A stretch of 64,000 bases of DNA, taken from contig NZ_OZ060395.1 in NCBI RefSeq assembly GCF_964059125.1, positions 62,001-126,000 of the forward strand, given 5' to 3'. This document shows, one piece after another, positions 1 to 62,139 of the stretch (position 1 is the first letter of the stretch; each line of letters starts with the position of its first letter). The notes below the pieces were generated by a model. That model made no database searches. It saw nothing but the letters and a program-made list of their open reading frames with translations, and was not told the origin of the DNA. The DNA is from Buchnera aphidicola (Eriosoma lanigerum) (GTDB lineage Bacteria > Pseudomonadota > Gammaproteobacteria > Enterobacterales > Enterobacteriaceae). A program made the position numbers and the translations under genes.

Positions 1-903
1 GTAGATTTAAAAAATCGAATTTTAAGACATGTATCACCGTCTTTTGTTGATGATCCTTTAAGAGTTCTTAGAGTGGCCAGATTTGCTGCTACTTTTTCAT
101 ATTTAGGTTTTTCAATTGCAACAGAAACATTATTAATCATGAAATCTATAGTAAAAAGTAAAGAATTATTGTATTTAAAATCAGAAAGAATTTGGAAAGA
201 AACAGAAAAAGCTTTTGTTAGTAATCATCCTCATGTATATTTTCAAATTTTGCATGCATGTAATGCATTAATTCTTTTATTTCCTGAAATAAATAGATTA
301 TTTAATATAGATAGTACATTTTATTATTTTTATAATATGTGGAATAAAAATATACATTTATTAAAATATTTAGCTTATGTATCTAAAAAAACAAAAGAAA
401 TAGATGTTCGTTTAGCTTGTTTATTTCAATTATTAAAAATAAAATCTAATTTTATAACTAATGTAAATATTGATCAAGAAAAACAAGATTATTATTGCTA
501 TTTATTTTTACAAAACTTTTTTGTACGATTTAATATACCTATTTATATTCGTGATTTATCAATATTAATTATTAAATATCATAATTTTATAAATAATATT
601 TTTTATGCTAAATCTTATGATATTGTGATTTTTTTAGGTAAAATAGATGCTTGGCGTAAACCTAAAAGAATTAAAAAAATAGAGTTATTAAGTAACTTAT
701 ATTATAAATTATTTCAATTTCAATATAATAAAAGTGTTTTACCAGGAAAATTTTTAAGTATTGCATATTCAATTACATCTACTGTTACTGCTAAATTTAT
801 TTTACATTTAGGTTTTAAAGGTATAGAAATAAGTAAAGAACTAGTACGTTTAAGATCTATGAGATTAGATATGTATAGAAAAAATATAGTATATTATAGA
901 TAA
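1..903 (+). CDS. cca: CCA tRNA nucleotidyltransferase, 3' part (cut by window start)
   Basis: The reading frame is open from base 1 (the codons before the first ATG at 73 also match the family), so the gene starts outside the window; about 300 C-terminal residues are seen. The enzyme adds or repairs the CCA end of tRNAs. The class II motif with core DPLRVLRVARFAA is at about residues 19-31 of the visible part, followed by the helical neck/body region with a conserved ERIWKE segment. The E. coli protein carries an HD phosphohydrolase domain after this; here the expected ALTHDLGK-like segment reads CLFQLLKIK, so the metal-binding His-Asp pair appears lost. The last third is low-complexity and weakly conserved. 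Three of the four tRNA genes in this window lack an encoded CCA, so the transferase activity is needed. Confidence 0.88.
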   Translation, partial: VDLKNRILRHVSPSFVDDPLRVLRVARFAATFSYLGFSIATETLLIMKSIVKSKELLYLKSERIWKETEKAFVSNHPHVYFQILHACNALILLFPEINRLFNIDSTFYYFYNMWNKNIHLLKYLAYVSKKTKEIDVRLACLFQLLKIKSNFITNVNIDQEKQDYYCYLFLQNFFVRFNIPIYIRDLSILIIKYHNFINNIFYAKSYDIVIFLGKIDAWRKPKRIKKIELLSNLYYKLFQFQYNKSVLPGKFLSIAYSITSTVTAKFILHLGFKGIEISKELVRLRSMRLDMYRKNIVYYR

Positions 904-940
904 TATTTTAATAAAAATACTAAATCTTATTTTATAACTT

Positions 941-979
941 TAAGCAGTTAAATGATTATATAGTTCGTTTAACTGCTTA
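941..979. terminator. Bidirectional terminator hairpin between cca and crr
   Basis: Perfect 12-bp inverted repeat (taagcagttaaa at 941-952, its complement at 968-979) around a 15-base loop. It lies between two convergent genes, 38 bases after the cca stop and just past the crr stop, so it can end transcripts from both sides. It is clearly richer in GC than the surrounding spacer. Confidence 0.75.
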
Positions 980-987
980 AAATTCTA

Positions 988-1494
988 TTATTTTTTTATA
1001 TACATTATAATAGTTGTTCCAGCAATAACAGTTCCTTTCATTTTTTTTATTTCTGTAATATCTTCCATATTAGATATAATGATAGGTGTGATGGTAGATT
1101 TAGCATTTTTTTCTAAGAAAGGAAGATTATATTTTAAAATTAAATCTCCTTGTTTTACTTTTTGTCCTTCTTCAGCTATTTGAGTAAATCCCTCTCCTTT
1201 TAATTTAACAGTATCTATCCCAAAATGTACAAACATTTGTAAATCTTGATTTTCAGATTCAATAGAAAAAGCATGTTTACTTGAAAAAATCTTTCCAATA
1301 ATTCCATTAATTGGTGCTAAAATTTGATCACCTGATGGTTTAATAGCTATTCCATCTCCAGCAATTTTTTCAGAAAAAACAGTGTCTGGAACAGTTTCAA
1401 TATCAATAATTTGTCCTGATATTGGTGCAATAATTTCTAGCATTTTTGTTTTTGTAGGTTTTTTATTACCGAATAAATTAGCAAATAATCCCAT
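988..1494 (-). CDS. crr: PTS glucose-specific enzyme IIA (EIIA-Glc)
   Basis: Cytoplasmic phosphocarrier that takes phosphate from HPr and passes it to the sugar permease IIBC. 168 residues, the usual family length (E. coli 169). The two histidines of the active site are present: H74 in KHAFSIES and the phosphorylated H90 in MFVHFGIDTV; the KAKST-like segment (NAKSTITPIIISN) follows at about 131. A Shine-Dalgarno sequence (GGAGAAA) precedes the ATG. It is the last gene of a leftward cysK-ptsH-ptsI-crr cluster, the same order as in E. coli, 40 bases after ptsI. The sugar-specific permease is not in this window. Confidence 0.97.
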   Translation of the reverse strand: MGLFANLFGNKKPTKTKMLEIIAPISGQIIDIETVPDTVFSEKIAGDGIAIKPSGDQILAPINGIIGKIFSSKHAFSIESENQDLQMFVHFGIDTVKLKGEGFTQIAEEGQKVKQGDLILKYNLPFLEKNAKSTITPIIISNMEDITEIKKMKGTVIAGTTIIMYIKK

Positions 1495-1534
1495 ATTTTT
1501 TCTCCTAACTATATTTTTAATAAATGATACATAT

Positions 1535-3259
1535 TTAGTGAATATTATTTGCAGTAAATTGATGAGTTAAATTAATAATTTCTTCTGAGGTAGATAAAGA
1601 TAATACTTTATTTGCTAATTTTACAGCTGTTTTATATGTAATACTTCTGATTATTTTTTTTACGATAGGTATAGAAGAGGGACTCATACTAAATTCATCT
1701 AGTCCCATTCCTAATAAAATTACAGTTGCATTAGGATCACCTGCTAATTCACCACACATACCAGTCCATTTTCCAACTGCATGAGAAGAATCAATGACCA
1801 TTTTAATTAATTTTAAAACAGATGGACTCATAGGATTATATAATTTTGAAATTAATTTATTTCCTCGATCAACAGCTAATGTATATTGTGTTAAATCATT
1901 AGTTCCAATACTAAAAAAATCTACTTCTTTTGCTAAGAAATTAGATATTATTGCAGAAGCTGGTGTTTCAATCATAATTCCGATTTCTATATTATTATCG
2001 AATGGTATATTTTTTATAAATAATTGTTTTTTAATTATGTTTAATTCTTTTTTTAAAATACGAATTTCTTCTATTGAAATAATCATTGGAAATAAAATTT
2101 TTAATTTTCCAAAAGATGAAGCTCGAAGAATAGCTTTTAGTTGTGTATGTAATATTTCTCGTTTATCCATTAATATTCGAATTGCTCTCCATCCTAAAAA
2201 TGGGTTTTCTTCTTTAGGAAAATTCATATATGGTAAATTTTTATCTCCTCCAATATCCATAGTTCTAATTATAACTGATTTATTTTTCATTGCTTCTGCG
2301 ATATTTTTATATGCTATAAATTGTTCTTCTTCATCAGGTAATGAGTTACGTTCCATAAATAAAAATTCTGTTCTGTAAAGTCCAATAGATTCTGAGCCAT
2401 ATTTTTTAACTTTAGTAATATCACGAATGTCTCCAATATTGGCACTAATTTCTATTCTATGTCCATCTAAGCTGATTGCAGGTAACAATTTTATTTTTTT
2501 TAATTTGTTTTTATTTTGTAAATATACATTTTTTATTTGATTGAACTGTGATTTCTCTTTGTTCGATGGATTGATAATTATTTTATTATTAATTGCATCT
2601 AAAATAACGTAATCACCATTTTTTACCATGTGAGTAGCATTACCTGTTCCTACTATAGCTGGCAATTCTAATGAACGAGCCATAATAGAAGTATGTGATG
2701 TTTTTCCTCCTAAATCGGTAATAAATCCAAGTATATTAGTTAAATTTATTTGTGCTGTTTCAGAAGGAGTTAAATCAGTTGCAACTAAAATAACTGGTTC
2801 AGAAATTTTTTCTAAATCAATGTTATGTATTTGTAACAAATTGTGTAGTAAATGATTGCCGACATCACGAATATCGATGGCTCGATTACTTAAATATTCG
2901 TTGTCTAATTTTTCTATTGTTTCAGCTTGTTGTTCAATTATATTTTTAATGGCAGCATCTGCAGTTTTTTTCTGTGTTTTAATTAAATTAATAACTTCTT
3001 TTTCAAATTCTTCATCTTCTAATAATATTATATATCCTTCAAATATATCTGATTTTTCTTTTCCTAATTTTTTTTTTGTATTTTTTTGTATTTTTTCAAA
3101 CTTTTTTATGGTAGTTTGTTTTGCTTCAAAAAATTTTTGAATTTCAAGATTAATTAAATCTTGAGAAATATGATTTTGATTAATGATAATTTTTTTTTCT
3201 ATTAGTAAAAAAACTTTACCAAATGCAATACCTGGTGATGCTAAAATCCCTGAAATCAT
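1535..3259 (-). CDS. ptsI: PTS enzyme I, phosphoenolpyruvate-protein phosphotransferase
   Basis: Cytoplasmic enzyme that autophosphorylates from PEP and phosphorylates HPr, starting all PTS sugar uptake. 574 residues (E. coli 575), so full length. The phosphohistidine is H189 in [13 protein letters not shown]; the N-terminal HPr-binding helical domain precedes it, and the C-terminal PEP-binding TIM barrel carries the [13 protein letters not shown] and MIETPASA segments and the [10 protein letters not shown] motif near residue 500, which holds the catalytic Cys. It sits 131 bases downstream of ptsH and 40 bases before crr, all leftward, and probably shares their transcript. No defects are visible. 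Confidence 0.98.
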
Positions 3260-3390
3260 AACATTACCTATAATGTAACAACGATGAATTTAAAATGATA
3301 AAAAATATTAATTTAATATAATAGTTGTATATATATAAATAATTTAATTAAATTAATTAATTATTTTTTTTTTAATACTTATTTAAACTG

Positions 3391-3648
3391 TTATTCTAAT
3401 ATTAATAATAACTTTTCTAAATTGTTCACAGCTAATTGTTCATCTTCTCCTTCTGCAGATAAAATAATTTCAGTTCCTTTTGTTAATCCTAAAGTTTGTA
3501 ATTTAAATAAGCTTTTAGCATTAACTATTTTCCCATTAGCTTGTATACTAATTTCTGAATTAAAATTTTTTGCTGCTTTTACTAATTTTGCTGCTGGACG
3601 AGTATGCAGTCCATGAGGCAATAAAATTTTTATTGTTTTTTGAAACAT
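3391..3648 (-). CDS. ptsH: PTS phosphocarrier protein HPr
   Basis: Small phosphocarrier between enzyme I and the IIA proteins. 85 residues, exactly the family length. Phosphorylated His15 lies in [11 protein letters not shown], and the regulatory-site Ser46 in [13 protein letters not shown] is present as in enteric HPr. The ATG is preceded by AAGGAACAAACA, a good ribosome-binding site. It lies between cysK (upstream, 179-base spacer) and ptsI (downstream, 131 bases), so either a promoter in the cysK-ptsH spacer or readthrough from cysK could drive it. Confidence 0.98.
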
Positions 3649-3827
3649 TGTTTGTTCCTTATTGCATAGTAATTATCTTATAAATTATGAATTATTCAAA
3701 TAATAAATATTAAAAAAAAATAATATAATTAAAATATTTTTTTGTATGTATTCTTTTATGTAATACTAATTAAATATTTAATTAGATATGTGTCTTAAAA
3801 AATATTATATATTTTTAATTATAATTT

Positions 3828-4811
3828 TTATATACTGTTATTTTTATGGTTGATATTATTAAATAAATTTGAAAATAAACTAGTACTTAAATATCTTTCT
3901 CCAGAAGATGGAAGAATGACTACTATTTTTTTGTTTACAAGATGTATGTTTTGTTGTTGTATTTTTAATGCAGCAGCTACAGCAGCTCCAGAAGATATTC
4001 CAACCAAAATTCCTTCTTCTTTCATTATTTTTTGTGCAGTAACAATAGCTTCTTCACTAGAAATACAAATCACTTGATCTATTAATGAAACATCTAAATT
4101 GTTAGGTATGAATCCTGCGCCAATTCCTTGAATTTTATGTGGACCAGGATTAATTTTTTGACCAGATAATGTTTGTGTAATTACTGGAGATTCACTGGGT
4201 TCTACTGCTATACTGATTAGTTTTTTATGTTTTTTAGTGTTTTTTAAATATCTTGTTACACCTGTAAATGTTCCTCCTGTTCCAATAGCAGAAATAAAGA
4301 TATCAATATTACCATTTGTATCTCTCCATATTTCTGGACCTGTAGTTTTTTCATGTATTTCTGGATTTGCTGGATTATTAAATTGCTGTAATAAAAGATA
4401 TTTTTTATTATTTTTTAGAGCAATTTTTTCTGCTAGTTCTATTGCTCCTTTCATGCCTTGAGCACTGTCTGTTAATTCTAATTTAGCACCAAGAGCAATT
4501 AGTAATTTTTGTCTTTCTATAGACATATTTTCTGGCATGATTAATGTAATTTTATAATTTCTAGCAGCAGCTACAAATGCTAATGCAATTCCTGTATTAC
4601 CACTAGTTGGTTCAATTAATTCCATATTTTTTTTTAGTAATCCTTTTTTTTCAGCATTCCAAATCATATTTGAACCAATTCTACATTTTACACTAAAACT
4701 AGGATTTTGAGATTCTATTTTTGCTAAAATATTTCCATTTCCAATTTTATTAAGTTGTACTAATGGAGTATTTCCAATTGTATAGGAATTATCTTTATAT
4801 ATTTGGTTCAT
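3828..4811 (-). CDS. cysK: Cysteine synthase A (O-acetylserine sulfhydrylase)
   Basis: PLP enzyme making cysteine from O-acetylserine and sulfide, the last step of sulfate assimilation. 327 residues (E. coli 323). The PLP lysine is K42 in SFSVKCRIG; the substrate loop [13 protein letters not shown] (about 67-79) and the PLP phosphate loop GTGGTFTG (about 177-184) are intact. It is the first gene of the leftward cysK-ptsH-ptsI-crr group, with enteric order. A 775-base AT-rich divergent spacer separates it from ligA; in E. coli that interval holds cysZ and zipA, which are not detectable here. Supply of cysteine to the host diet is the likely reason for retention. Confidence 0.97.
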
Positions 4812-5586
4812 TTTTTTTTCCAGTGATTATAACATAGTATTTTTTATGCTAATTTGATTAATTTAAAAATTATTAATATTCATACTAGTAGTAATTTACA
4901 GTAATTATATAATTAGATTTTTTTATAAAGTGATTTCCATATGTGTTGTATATATAAAAAATTTACAATTAGAATATCATATATATGAGATAAAATTATT
5001 AATTACATTATTTTTCTTACAAATTAATGATATTTAATTTATGTAGGAGTAAATCGCATAATAAAATACAAAAATTATCTGTATTATAAATAAGTAATAA
5101 ATTATTTTTGTTATATAAAATAAAAAGTTATAAATTTATGTAATTAATATATATATGTATATATATTATATAAAAATCAATAAATTATATTTATTAACTG
5201 TTTAATCTATAATTAAATTTATATAATTTTTTTTTTATATTTTGTTATATATGAAATATATATTGATTTAATTAAATATATTTGAATATATATAAATCAA
5301 AATCAACGAATCAGGGCTTTTTTATGTATTTTTTTACAATAATTAATAATTTTGTAAGATAATTTTTATTGTATATATAAATATAATTTTTTTTTATGGA
5401 TTTGTGATATAGAATGACAAATTAATAATATAATAAAAATATTTTAAAAACATTATTTATTTGTAAATATACTATATTATAATAAATTTAATTATATATT
5501 TTGTATATTCAGATATATTTATTATTTTTTTTTAATTTAGTATTATATAATTATCATTAATTTTCAATTTATAATAAAAATATTGA
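4812..5586. other. 775-base divergent spacer without recognisable genes
   Basis: No ORF with family resemblance, tRNA or structured RNA was found between cysK (leftward) and ligA (rightward). In E. coli this interval carries cysZ and zipA, so this is probably eroded gene space that now holds promoters for both directions. The only compositionally unusual patch is a short GC-containing stretch around 5305-5320 (cgaatcagggct). Confidence 0.6.
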
Positions 5587-7344
<1,758 letters not shown>

Positions 7345-24229: not shown

Positions 24230-24610
24230 AGTATCAGTTAACTTATAAGCCGGGTTCTGTATTTGATAGTCATTCATCTAGATTAATAATCGCTTATTAA
24301 TTCAAGCAGCCTACCCAGATTTAAAAGTACGGGACGCACTGTCGTTAATCTTTATTTGGCTTTGCTCCAGGTGGAGTTTACCTTGCCGAATTCTATTACT
24401 AGATCCGCGGTGTGCTTTTACCACACCTTTTCACCCTTACCTTATTTTTATAATATTTATTAAATATTTTATTTGGCGGTATTTTTTCTGTGGCACTAGT
24501 CGTAAAATATTTTCCCAGATGTTATCTGGCACCTTACCCTATGGAGCCCGGACTTTCCTCTACTTATTATATTTCTATTGTTAGTAGCGACTATCTAGTT
24601 AACTGATACT
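24230..24610 (-). ncRNA. rnpB: RNase P RNA (M1 RNA)
   Basis: Catalytic RNA that cuts tRNA 5' leaders. About 381 bases on the minus strand. The universally conserved P4/CR elements are visible: GAGGAAAGTCCGGGCTCC near the 5' end (complement at about 24542-24560), AGGGTGAAAAGGTG, ACTCCACCTGGAGCAAAGCC, GGGTAGGCTGCTTGAA and the 3' ACAGAACCCGGCTTATA. Helix P1 forms from the two ends (24230-24243 pairs with 24597-24610, 14 bp). Bacterial type A layout; AT-rich peripheral helices around 24440-24500. It lies next to rsmI, as in E. coli. Confidence 0.96.
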
Positions 24611-47335: not shown

Positions 47336-48973
47336 ATGTCATTGTTTAAGAAAAAAATGTTAGTAACTTGTGCTTTTCCTTATGCTAATGGATCAATTCA
47401 TTTAGGACATTTGTTAGAGCAAATTCAAGCAGATATTTGGGTTCGATATCAAAGATTGCGTGGACATATAGTATGGTTTATTTGTGCTGATGATACTCAT
47501 GGAACTGCAATTATGATGAAATCAAGAAATATGGGAATATCGCCTGAAAAAATTATACATTCTGTATTATTAGAACATATTTCTGATTTTAAATCGTTTA
47601 ATATTTCTCATGATAATTACTATACAACTCATTCTTCAGAAAATTATTATTTTTTAAAAAAAATTTATCATTTGTTAAAGAAAAAAAAATTAATTCATGA
47701 AAAAAATATTACTCAATTGTATGATCCAATAGAAAAAATATTTCTTCCTGATCGTTTAATTAAAGGTGTGTGTCCTAAATGTAATGAAAAAAATCAATAT
47801 GGTGACAATTGTGAACAATGTGGATCAATTTATGATTCAGTGGAATTAATTGATCCTATTTCTACAATATCTGGTGTAAAACCGATATTGCGTAAATCAA
47901 TGCACTTATTTTTTAATTTACCTTGTTTTCGGGAACAATTATATGATTGGATGCATTCTTCCAATGTGTTAGAGAAAAAAGTATTAAATAAAGCAAAAGA
48001 ATGGTTTAGTACAGAATTAAAACCTTGGAATATTTCTAGAGATGGACCATATTTTGGTTTTCAGATTCCAAATTATTTTAATAAATATTTTTATGTTTGG
48101 CTAGATGCCCCGATTGGTTATTTAAGTGTATTTAAAAATTTATGTACTAAGAATAAAAGTATATGTTTTAATGATTTTTGGGATGTAAATACAACAACAT
48201 TATTATATCATTTTATAGGTAAAGATATTATTTATTTTCATAGTTTGTTTTGGCCAGCTATATTAGAAGCTTCTGGATTGAGGAAACCTACGAAAATATT
48301 TGTTCATGGTTACGTTACTGTTAAGGGATTGAAGTTATCTAAATCTAAGGGTTCTGCAATATTAGCAAAAGATTGGTTGAAGTATTTAGATTCTGATAGT
48401 TTACGGTATTATTATGCTTCTAAATTATCTTCTAACATAGATGATATTGAAATTAATGTACAAGACTTAGTCCAGAAAGTAAATTCAGATATCGTTAATA
48501 AAGTGATTAATTTAGCATCAAGAACAGCTAAAATTATTAATAAATATTTTAATAGTCAATTATCAGATAAAATAGATGATAATCAGTTATTGAATATATT
48601 TTTAGATTTTACTAAAAAAATTGAATATTTTTTGGAACATAGAGAGTATAGTGAAGCAATTCGTAGTATTATGAGATTTGCAGATATGGGAAACAAATAT
48701 ATTAATACTCGATCCCCTTGGATTATTTTACAAACTAAAGGTATTGTTATAGAAGTACAAGATATTTGTTCAATGGGTATTAATTTGTTTCGAATATTAA
48801 TGACTTGGTTACAACCTATTGTACCTAATTTAGCAAAGAATACAGAATTGTTTCTTCTTAGTAAATTATCCTGGAATTCCATTAATATTCCTTTATTATC
48901 TCATAAGGTAGCTATTTTTAAACCATTATATAAAAAATTAGATTATAATTTAATTAAAACAATTTTTGATTAA
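47336..48973 (+). CDS. metG: Methionyl-tRNA synthetase without the C-terminal dimer domain
   Basis: Charges initiator and elongator tRNA-Met. 545 residues against 677 in E. coli. HIGH motif HLGH at 22-25 in SIHLGHLLEQ; zinc knuckle CPKC...CEQCG at about 146-162; KMSKS-type motif KLSKSKG at about 335-341; anticodon domain with the INTRSPWIIL and LQPIVPNLAK segments. It stops where the EMAP-II-like tRNA-binding/dimerisation domain begins, so it is a monomeric short form. ACAGGAACTTCTAT precedes the ATG. Convergent with tilS, only 13 bases apart. Confidence 0.97.
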   Translation: MSLFKKKMLVTCAFPYANGSIHLGHLLEQIQADIWVRYQRLRGHIVWFICADDTHGTAIMMKSRNMGISPEKIIHSVLLEHISDFKSFNISHDNYYTTHSSENYYFLKKIYHLLKKKKLIHEKNITQLYDPIEKIFLPDRLIKGVCPKCNEKNQYGDNCEQCGSIYDSVELIDPISTISGVKPILRKSMHLFFNLPCFREQLYDWMHSSNVLEKKVLNKAKEWFSTELKPWNISRDGPYFGFQIPNYFNKYFYVWLDAPIGYLSVFKNLCTKNKSICFNDFWDVNTTTLLYHFIGKDIIYFHSLFWPAILEASGLRKPTKIFVHGYVTVKGLKLSKSKGSAILAKDWLKYLDSDSLRYYYASKLSSNIDDIEINVQDLVQKVNSDIVNKVINLASRTAKIINKYFNSQLSDKIDDNQLLNIFLDFTKKIEYFLEHREYSEAIRSIMRFADMGNKYINTRSPWIILQTKGIVIEVQDICSMGINLFRILMTWLQPIVPNLAKNTELFLLSKLSWNSINIPLLSHKVAIFKPLYKKLDYNLIKTIFD

Positions 48974-48986
48974 AGTAAATAAATAT

Positions 48987-50311
48987 TTAATTATAATTAT
49001 TACCATGAATATGGTTTATATGATTATACCATGACAAACACCATTTTTTTCTATTTAATAAAATTTTTGAATGAGATGTATAGTATCCTAATGCTGTAAT
49101 AAAATGATTATTGTAATATATCATTGGAATTCTTTTTCTTTCCCAAGGTGGAATTCTCATTTTTTGCCATATTTTTTTTATTTCAATGAATTTATGATTT
49201 TGGTTAATACATTTTTTATCTGCTTGGAAACGGATATTAACTATTTCGTTAGAATGAGGAATAGGCAAATTATTTCCATAAAGATTTGATTGAATGATTC
49301 CTAATTGATTAGGTAAAATTAATGGTTTATTATAATTTTTCCAAAATATAATTAGATTATTTATTTTTTTCATTATAGGAAGAATATAAATAAATGTTTT
49401 ATAACGAATAATTTCAAATTTATGAAACTGTAATTTTGGATTAATAGAGTTTGGCATTAAAATCAGTTCATTATATATCATATTAATTTTATGATAAGAA
49501 GGCATTTCTTGATGATGAAATTTAATCCAGTGTCGTAAAATTAAATTTCTCATTGTTTCATTATATCTATTAATATCAATAATATTTAATGAACCATTAG
49601 AACACAAATATTTGTTGAATATTTTATATGTAAATTGATTGAGTATAATATTTTCTTCATTAATTAATTTAATACTTCGCATAGAATTTTTTATAAAAAA
49701 TGGCCATTTTTTTTCTATTTTTGGAAGAATCTGATGTCTTATAAAATTTCTGTCAAATTTTATATTTTGATTAGATGAATCAGATAACCAACTTAATTTT
49801 TGATTTATTGCCCAATTTTTTATTTCTTGTTTAGTAACGTATAATAATGGTCTACAATGTATATTAGCTCCAATTTTCTTTATATAAGGCATAGAACTTA
49901 ATCCAGTTGGTCCACTTCCTCTTTTTAATGCTAATAAGAACGTTTCTAATTGATCATTTAAGTGATGTGCTGTTAGTAAAATTTCTGATTTTAATAAATT
50001 TTTTTGAATAGCTTTATAACGTTCTATTCTAAAGTAAGCTTCTATTCCATAAACATTTTTTTTATAATTAGGGATAGATTGAATAATGCATTCTACGTCA
50101 TATTTTTCACAAATATTTTTACAAAAAATACTCCATTGATTGGAATTTTTATCATAATTATGATTAATATGAATAGCTCGAAATTTTATAGTATGATTTT
50201 TTTTTTTAAATGAATAAATTGATGTAATAATACAGTAGAATCTATTCCTCCACTATATGCTATCATAAAACTATAATTATTATGAAATTGATTGATAAAA
50301 TCATTAATCAA
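48987..50311 (-). CDS. tilS: tRNA(Ile)-lysidine synthase, frameshifted in a poly-A tract
   Basis: Modifies C34 of tRNA-Ile(CAU) to lysidine so that AUA is read as Ile; essential in bacteria. The N-terminal part, from a TTG at 50311 with GGAG 8 bases upstream, carries the PP-loop SGGIDSTVLLHQ. It then reaches an 11-A run (50197-50207 as T on the plus strand) and would stop at a TAA soon after. The other part continues in the next frame with IKFRAIHINHNYD, HHLNDQLETFLLALKRGSGPTGLSSM and the C-terminal domains to 48987. Adding one A (12) joins both into about 441 residues (E. coli 432) with no other stop. Both halves are well conserved, suggesting rescue by RNA-polymerase slippage rather than a dead gene. 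Confidence 0.88.
50197..50207 (-). other. 11-A slippage-prone tract causing the tilS frameshift
   Basis: Eleven consecutive A on the coding strand. Upstream frame: L-K-K-K then a +1 shift to a stop (ATC ATA CTA TAA). Downstream frame reads N-H-T-I-K-F, continuing TilS. Buchnera is known to rescue such frameshifts by transcriptional slippage in long A tracts (established knowledge). Confidence 0.8.
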
Positions 50312-50418
50312 AATTATATCTCCATAAATGTTTGTATACTATATTTATATTTTTATGCATTATGCAATAAGGTTGTTGTTTTTAAATAGAATTTAATTAA
50401 TTTATTGTAATATATTTG

Positions 50419-50492
50419 TACGTTCGAGTGGATTTGAACCACTGACCCCCACCTTGTCATGGTGGTACTCTAACCTTCTGAGCTACGAACGT
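50419..50492 (-). tRNA. tRNA-Val (GAC)
   Basis: 74-base cloverleaf on the minus strand. Acceptor acgttcg/cgaacgt, anticodon stem ccacc/ggtgg with loop atgacaa (GAC), T-arm with GGTTCAAATCC, discriminator A, no encoded CCA. Very like enteric valV/valW, which lie in the same chromosomal area as ribE (ribC) in E. coli. Confidence 0.94.
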
Positions 50493-59677: not shown

Positions 59678-60055
59678 TTATTTTATTAATGAAAAACTTT
59701 CTCCACATCCACAAGAAAATTTAACTTTTTTGTTATAAAATTTAAATAATTGATTTACGCCTTCTGTTACAAAATCAACTGTCATATCGTTAAGTAAATT
59801 TATTTGTTGTAATGGAATACATACTATAAAGTGTGTAAAATAAAATATTAATTCTTCTTTTTTTTGTTCTTTAATTTGTTCCACATGATAACGAAATCCT
59901 GCACACCCTGATTTCTTGATTTGAATTCTCACACCTATAAAATCATTTGATTGTTGTAATAAAGAATGAATTTGATCTTCTGCTTTTTTTGTTAAATGAA
60001 TACCCTTCCATTTATTTTCTTTATTAATAATTTTGGTATTATAACTTTCTATCAT
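59678..60055 (-). CDS. sufA: Iron-sulfur cluster assembly A-type carrier SufA
   Basis: 125 residues from the ATG at 60055 (E. coli SufA 122); ATGs at 60070 and 60106 would add unconserved residues. A-type carrier that passes Fe-S clusters to apoproteins. The three ligand cysteines are present in SGCAGFRY and CGCGESF (C-terminal CGC). VDFVTEGVNQLFKFYN is closer to SufA than to IscA or ErpA, and the neighbour ydiK agrees with the E. coli suf location. sufBCDSE are not in this window; leftward, convergent with tyrS. Confidence 0.9.
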   Translation of the reverse strand: MIESYNTKIINKENKWKGIHLTKKAEDQIHSLLQQSNDFIGVRIQIKKSGCAGFRYHVEQIKEQKKEELIFYFTHFIVCIPLQQINLLNDMTVDFVTEGVNQLFKFYNKKVKFSCGCGESFSLIK

Positions 60056-60106
60056 ATATATTTTCCGCATGTATGATATTGATGTATAGATATATCTTGA
60101 TATCAT

Positions 60107-60520
60107 TTATTTTTTAAATTAATAATAATTGAACTTATTATATGTATTAGTGTTCATTTTAATAGTATATTTTTTGTAAACATAATTATATATTATATTA
60201 TTGTGAATTTAAATTATTGATCCAGTAATGAAAATAAAACAATATAATGTTATTATATTTAATATATAATTTTACTGGATACTATATTATTGTTATATTT
60301 TTTATATTCTATATATATAAGATAATTATTAAAAAAATTTTATTATATATTTAATTTGATATTATATAACATACAATATTGAAAATATACTATTTTAGTG
60401 ATTTATTATATTTTATTTATGTAAAAATTATCTTATTAGTTAATTATATTAATAATTGAGTATATGATAATTATTACAACAAAAAAAATAATTAAAAAAC
60501 TTTCGAGGTGTGACTTTTAT
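60107..60520. other. 414-base divergent spacer with nested inverted repeats
   Basis: Between sufA (leftward) and ydiK (rightward). It contains an outer 9-bp repeat atccagtaa (60220-60228)/ttactggat (60272-60280) enclosing an inner 8-bp hairpin (60241-60248/60252-60259). No gene found. Because the flanking genes diverge, it is not a normal terminator position. Confidence 0.5.
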
Positions 60521-61621
60521 ATGTACAACCAACGGAAAGATACAAACTTAATACAAACAATTTTTTTAGTTATATTTATTATAATTATGATGTTTACAAG
60601 TTTTTTAATTATTTATCCATTTTTTTTATCTTTTACTTGGTCTGGTATGATTGTTATTTCTACTTGGCCTATTTTGTTAATAATTCAAAAAAATTTAGGT
60701 GGTCAGAGATTCTTAGCAGTAATGATTATGGTTATTTTACTATTATTATTTTTTTGTTTACCTGTAATTATTTTAGTTAATAATTTAATTGATAACAGTC
60801 TTCCTTTTATTAATTGGTTACATTCTGGTAATTTAAAATTTCCAAAATTAATTTGGATTAAAGATATTCCTGTAATTGGTGATGGATTATTTTCAAAATA
60901 TCAAAATTTATTAAAAAACGAAGGATCGTTATTAATTGCACATATCAGACCTTATATGAGTTATACAAGTATTTTTTTTCTTGTTCAAGCAGGAAAATTA
61001 GGTAAGTTAATAGTACATTTGATTTGTATAATTATTTTTAGCGGGTTGTTATATTGGAATGGAGAAAAAATAGAAAAAACTATTCGACATTTTGCTTTTA
61101 GATTAGGTTCTGATTCTGGTGATGCGGTTATTGTTTTTGCCGGTAAATCTATTCGTTCTGTGGCATTAGGTATCATTGTAACTTCTTTAATTCAAATTAT
61201 TTTATCTGGAATAGGATTAATTGTATTTAATATTCCTTATTTTTGCATATTAATTGTATTAGTTATCTTTTTTTGTTTGATACAATTAGGACCGTTACCT
61301 GTTTTAATTCCAGTAATTATATGGTTGTTTTTAAATAATTATACTACATCTGGAATATTATTATTATTTTGGAGTATTAATATTTGTATATTAGATAGTA
61401 TATTACGTCCTTTTTTAATTAAAATAGGTGCTGATCTTCCAACTTTATTAAGTATTTTTGGAGCAATAGGGGGGTTGTTAATGTTTGGAATGATAGGATT
61501 ATTTTTAGGTCCTGTGGTATTAGTGATTTCTTATCGTCTCATTTTATCATGGATGAATAATGTTCCATTTTCAGAATTTTTATTAGAAAAAAATATAAAA
61601 AAAAATAATAAAACTGAATAA
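60521..61621 (+). CDS. ydiK: AI-2E family inner-membrane transporter YdiK
   Basis: 366 residues from ATG 60521 (E. coli 370); the frame continues upstream to 60464 but those residues are Lys-rich and unconserved, and GAGGTG at about 60505 fits the later start. About eight hydrophobic segments; TWPILLIIQ, LIQLGPLPVLIPVIIWL, and LRPFLIKIGADLPTLLSIFGAIGGLLMFGMIGLFLGP (key residues RPxLI..G..LP......GGL..FG..G...GP) match the family. Substrate unknown. Same location as in E. coli, next to the suf genes. Confidence 0.93.
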   Translation: MYNQRKDTNLIQTIFLVIFIIIMMFTSFLIIYPFFLSFTWSGMIVISTWPILLIIQKNLGGQRFLAVMIMVILLLLFFCLPVIILVNNLIDNSLPFINWLHSGNLKFPKLIWIKDIPVIGDGLFSKYQNLLKNEGSLLIAHIRPYMSYTSIFFLVQAGKLGKLIVHLICIIIFSGLLYWNGEKIEKTIRHFAFRLGSDSGDAVIVFAGKSIRSVALGIIVTSLIQIILSGIGLIVFNIPYFCILIVLVIFFCLIQLGPLPVLIPVIIWLFLNNYTTSGILLLFWSINICILDSILRPFLIKIGADLPTLLSIFGAIGGLLMFGMIGLFLGPVVLVISYRLILSWMNNVPFSEFLLEKNIKKNNKTE

Positions 61622-62139
61622 ATAGTAAGTACATGAATTTATATTATTTGTAGTTGATATTATCTTAATTTATTTTAATTTTTATAAATAAATGATGTAT
61701 TTATATTAATAATCTAACAAATATTAATATATTTTATTATTTTATTTAATTTTTCTTTATTATATAAGATAATTGTTATAGTTGAATAATATTTATTATA
61801 TTAATAAATATTAATATTCACAGTTATTAATTAATAAATATTATCTATTTAGTTTTTTATGTTTATTTTAAATCAATTTAATAAATTATAATTTATTCAT
61901 GATTGTTTGTTTTGTTTTTCTATTAAATAAAATTAATAAGTTATAATATTTTTAGTTTAAATCTTTTTATATTTTTTTGAATTTAAATTATATTGGATGA
62001 TTGAAATTATAATTAATACTACATGATGTAATAATTAATTTTCAATAATATATTTAAAATTAAGATAAAAGTAGTAAATTATTTTTTTTAAATTATTTTT
62101 TTTTTTTTTTTTTTTTTACATTAAAATATAGAGAATAAA
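61622..62139. other. 518-base spacer with a 22-T homopolymer before aroH
   Basis: AT-rich; no gene found. A run of 22 T at 62096-62117 ends 22 bases before the aroH start, preceded by another 8-T run at about 62082-62089. No TrpR-operator-like palindrome (core CTAG symmetry) was recognised. Confidence 0.55.

Follow-up and report, generated by a model that had tools for sequence, protein, structure and literature searches.

In this Buchnera-type genome, the reading frame of tilS is shifted by a net one base within a run of A's, and the gene, judging from its sequence, is probably still functional by slippage. The gene lies in the window, by which we mean the whole 64,000-base stretch of DNA analyzed here (bases 62001–126000 of a 626,868-base contig, in a genome of 637,734 bases and 3 contigs; 18%–26% GC in 4-kb slices).

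Anatomy of a gene in two frames

The start codon of tilS, on the minus strand, is a TTG (50309–50311) with GGAG 8 nt upstream (50320–50323). Three relatives were examined at this position, and TTG ATT is present in two of them (L005 and L024) and absent in the third (L004). From the TTG, a frame-0 piece of 41 codons (50186–50311, minus strand; LINDFINQ...AYSGGIDSTVLLHQFIHLKKKIIL) leads into a run of exactly 11 A (50197–50207, minus strand; T on the plus strand), which is the meeting point of the two frames, is read in A_AAA_AAA steps in frame 0, and is followed just past its end by the TAA that closes that frame (50188–50186). The remainder of the enzyme, i.e., the rest of the PP-loop domain and the TilS substrate-binding and C-terminal domains, is encoded in the -1 frame (48987–50204, minus strand). 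This second frame is open from 50252 to its stop at 48989–48987 with no other stop on the way, and 405 stop-free codons lie downstream of the run. The frame reading and the order of profile matches thus bear out the original prediction that the N-terminus and the rest of TilS stand in different frames joined at the 11-A run, and its arithmetic is also correct, as one added A (1325 nt plus one) yields 441 residues without another stop.

Profile matches to the first piece are weak when it is taken by itself. It covers positions 8–43 of PRK10660 (NCBIfam) at a score below the cut-off, reaches 22.7 against a Pfam cut-off of 27, and spans positions 2–26 of TIGR02432 (alone below the curated cut-off), from which the second piece continues through positions 26–189. 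Pfam PP-loop, TilS and TilS_C are all matched in the second piece and follow in the correct order across the two frames, and the same piece aligns with residues 40–416 of 1ni5, a solved chain deposited as MesJ. The SGGIDS motif (50237–50254, minus strand), which we take to be the PP-loop ATP-binding motif, occurs upstream of the run only. The motif and the remainder of the enzyme are thus on separate pieces, the first and the second respectively, and neither piece would be expected to work alone. The gene is otherwise full length relative to its homologs, with no further disablement found; in this, and in having its one frame break within a homopolymer of A/T, it is like the homopolymeric frameshift genes of insect symbionts. 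A tRNA-Val(GAC) gene (50418–50492, minus strand) lies upstream, and the convergent metG (methionine--tRNA ligase; 47336–48973, plus strand) ends 13 bases from the tilS stop.

AUA decoding and the probable need for TilS

A profile search of the contigs found tilS over the family cut-off at a single locus in the genome. The only other match in this search (G000 C1 276184–276408) scored 22.2 bits, far short of the 93.6 required, and was rejected as a second copy. TilS matches were present in 119 of 119 sampled genomes of the family (118 over the cut-off) and in 3 of 3 genomes of the genus, own genome included in both counts. As a separate observation, the TilS matches of two small genomes (L023 of G104, and G118:C1:275758–276315) each contain a single in-frame TGA, possibly owing to a different genetic code.

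All 32 tRNA matches in the genome were typed with ARAGORN. Isoleucine anticodons were GAT (GAU) and CAT (CAU) only, and tRNA-Lys (UUU) was single; a tRNA-Ile(UAU), which would make TilS dispensable, was absent among the 32 (no TAT anticodon). Three tRNA genes have a CAT anticodon. One of these, 73 nt long, is the isoleucine tRNA (93%–95% identity to E. coli genes annotated as tRNA-Ile, in the best 8 of 6003 records), and the remaining two are presumably methionine tRNAs. The reading of AUA therefore relies on tRNA-Ile(CAU), as had been assumed at the outset, this being the only isoleucine tRNA in the genome fit for the codon. AUA is as common as predicted, with 755 occurrences among 2,208 isoleucine codons (17,394 codons in total, from 55 window ORFs delimited by stop codons) and at least one in each of the 55 ORFs. 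Given AUA in all 55 window ORFs examined and the failure to find another tilS or a tRNA-Ile(UAU), true loss should be severe, although tilS is reported as uniquely pseudogenized in the Portiera of S. simplex, which counts against an absolute need (PMC7821994).

Constraint, recent loss, and assembly error

The original prediction proposed a comparison with related tilS genes, and in the closest relative compared (G001; 79% identity over metG) the gene is intact and without the run (one 436-aa frame; longest A run of 6 in the 120 bases from the motif). A run-length comparison was given 18 relatives and yielded a row for 17 (none for L023); among these 17, the longest A run in the 120-base stretch was 10 (L028), and the motif lay within one long frame. 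No closer named relative was confirmed in a first scan, and the best among the 80 of 532 listed in a second was the Buchnera of Pemphigus at 49%; such scans may leave out very near records.

Both halves of the gene are conserved, as had been claimed, with 55% (residues 2–39) and 60% (residues 33–434) identity to G001. The NG86 dN/dS of tilS was 0.41, ranking 38 of 55 window ORFs (median 0.31), for an ORF (48990–50252) in which about 15 codons upstream of the run are in the wrong frame; its dN ranked 45 of 55, and its dS, summed along the path separating it from G001, was 0.73. tilS is, hence, among the less constrained genes of the window, yet inside their range. Relative-rate comparisons counted 37 lineage-specific protein changes for the window versus 32 for G001 with outgroup G032 (410 sites, p 0.63), and 45 versus 34 with outgroup G002 (413 sites, p 0.26). 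Acceleration on the window lineage was not significant, and both counts lean toward more change there. An apparent decay of the active site was set aside, since the N of HHLND is common to several of 8 aligned relatives and so does not mark damage specific to this gene. A neutrally evolving gene should acquire three stops by 0.027–0.038 substitutions per site, as compared with the dS of 0.73 to G001, and as none was seen, tilS, if dead, is young. Most of the measured divergence may predate the break, so none of these tests can date it; the constraint, observed against a relative with 79% identity over metG, may likewise largely precede it.

An alternative, which we consider unlikely, is that the gene was inactivated very recently by a mutation that drift fixed in the sampled line, or that the run length is mixed among symbiont genome copies. 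After a recent event, no additional stops would be expected, 42 of 69 pseudogenes in four Buchnera genomes are described as confined to single genomes and homopolymer-caused (PMC3164680), and the Portiera case provides a precedent for tilS itself; against this stands the severity to be expected of a loss where all 55 window ORFs examined use AUA and neither another tilS nor a tRNA-Ile(UAU) was found.

A sequencing or assembly miscall of one homopolymer, with the real genome in frame, is likewise improbable. Long A runs are known to be error-prone, and 454 reads are called unreliable in poly-A-rich regions in a Buchnera study (PMC3890641), but tilS was the sole frame-split gene in 145 gene comparisons over 184,000 bases of its own genome (29% of the main contig; G001 ORFs of at least 80 aa, with 60001–62000 left out and one stretch-end gene counted twice). 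Besides tilS, the 6 flags raised in these comparisons comprised four cases cut by the end of a stretch and one ORF lying across a tRNA cluster. A pass with ORFs from 50 aa added four two-frame flags, all explained otherwise: two were short ORFs over the RNase P RNA gene (24230–24606), and two were neighboring genes matching each other at 24%–27% identity. Moreover, the window contains 47 A/T runs of at least 9, of which 37 (five of them 11 long) lie in stop-to-stop ORFs that have an ortholog in G001, although some of these runs may precede the true start; only the tilS run splits one gene into two frames. The lone split and the constraint argue against general damage to the assembly and against decay of long standing, although the same picture would arise from one miscalled run or from a mutation of very recent date.

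Some further features of the genome were recorded. A/T runs of at least 9 in the 184 kb sampled had lengths of 9–12 and then 17–22 (six long ones), with none of 13–16; a T22 run (window 62096–62117) precedes, by about 20 bases, the ATG of a gene for an AroH-type DAHP synthase. Contig 2 (L039, 1–8363) is plasmid-like, with trpEG-like matches at about 5.9–7.6 kb and a region at about 325–5890 that has no ORF of at least 100 aa and possibly consists of eroded repeats; its 10 plasmid matches are all from Buchnera, the best-ranked being 72.5% identical over 20% of the query. Together with gene content and the low GC, these matches point to an aphid symbiont of the Buchnera type. Contig 3 (L040, 1–2503) had no listed ORF of at least 60 aa and no match in the plasmid collection.

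That two polypeptides, one per frame, assemble into an active split TilS is very improbable: both pieces are conserved, but the N piece has just 41 residues, the motif sits within one long frame in the 17 relatives read, and the downstream frame lacks an ATG, GTG or TTG before 49892, such that an ordinary start would cost more than 100 further residues.

Probable slippage and known frameshift genes

We favor leaky slippage, mainly transcriptional and without a programmed stimulator, as the means by which tilS would be kept alive. Given a slippery 11-A tract, full-length TilS would come from a share of the gene's expression: RNA polymerase may insert an extra A into some transcripts, ribosomes served by one tRNA-Lys(UUU) may slip -1 on A_AAA_AAA, and either route, or both, would lead to the same residues and the same protein. 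The original prediction held that the gene is alive with only part of its transcripts in frame. Its constraint and single copy agree with the first part of that claim; the slippage itself, the machine behind it and its rate are inferred.

A dnaX-type -1 frameshift combines a slippery heptamer with an upstream SD-like stimulator and a downstream structural one. At the tilS run, A_AAA_AAA is present and such stimulators were not found: predicted folding around and downstream of the run was no better than in shuffles (z 0.17), and the only GGAGG seen near it is about 40 nt upstream. In E. coli, A_AAA_AAA is far less shift-prone than A_AAA_AAG (PMC5009743). Published evidence on transcript rescue, to which the original prediction appealed for Buchnera poly-A frameshifts, is in conflict: the same review cites 12%–50% corrected transcripts for aphid- and ant-symbiont genes (PMC5009743), whereas a study covering the Buchnera transcriptome as a whole observed no case of a frame being restored. 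Homopolymers accounted for 151 of 157 insertions versus 16 of 57 deletions in the Buchnera transcripts of that study (70 deletions are also given); insertions at homopolymers are hence commoner than deletions, and the direction useful to tilS is the commoner one.

A bolder and improbable extension is that the slippery run sets a low and noisy TilS level, with lysidine supply and proteome-wide AUA decoding dependent on errors made by the polymerase or the ribosome. The tilS mRNA has 22 AUA codons downstream of the run, and if TilS were indeed low, these would add feedback. Should the break be real and the gene expressed, a normally essential decoding enzyme would be supplied solely via errors of transcription or decoding, providing a sharp test of the infidelity tolerated by a reduced genome. 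Otherwise, the case shows that homopolymer lengths in AT-rich assemblies should be used with care when an essential gene is declared lost or retained.

Homopolymeric frameshift genes of Buchnera were reportedly treated by Tamas in 2008. Between 1 and 18 such frameshifts per Buchnera genome have been tabulated, including convergent cases such as murF (PMC3164680), and the affected genes have been merged as functional in Buchnera (PMC3890641) and likewise in Blochmannia, where the tracts are also poly(A) (PMC4389277). The main texts of the two Buchnera papers contain neither tilS nor mesJ, and no poly(A) frameshift in tilS appeared in literature titles and abstract openings on tilS or mesJ with Buchnera or symbiont frameshift. 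tilS is similar to the Buchnera genes in its single poly(A) indel, with both sides conserved and in two frames (PMC3164680, PMC3890641); unlike the catalogued genomes with their 1–18 frameshifts, this one showed 1 in 145 comparisons. B. vafer has eight described frameshift genes, dnaX, dnaG and pth among them, and no acceleration is reported for the four genes tested for rate; tilS resembles these three as an information-processing gene for which slippage is inferred, and differs in genus and in the genes concerned (PMC3017870). lipA, fabB and bioA in the Buchnera of Pentalonia also have low-complexity frameshifts for which rescue was thought likely, although it is ascribed there to ribosomal frameshifting, and the genes are other than tilS (PMC7245037). 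The frame-split tilS therefore adds an unusually important gene to an already known class of poly(A) frameshifts.
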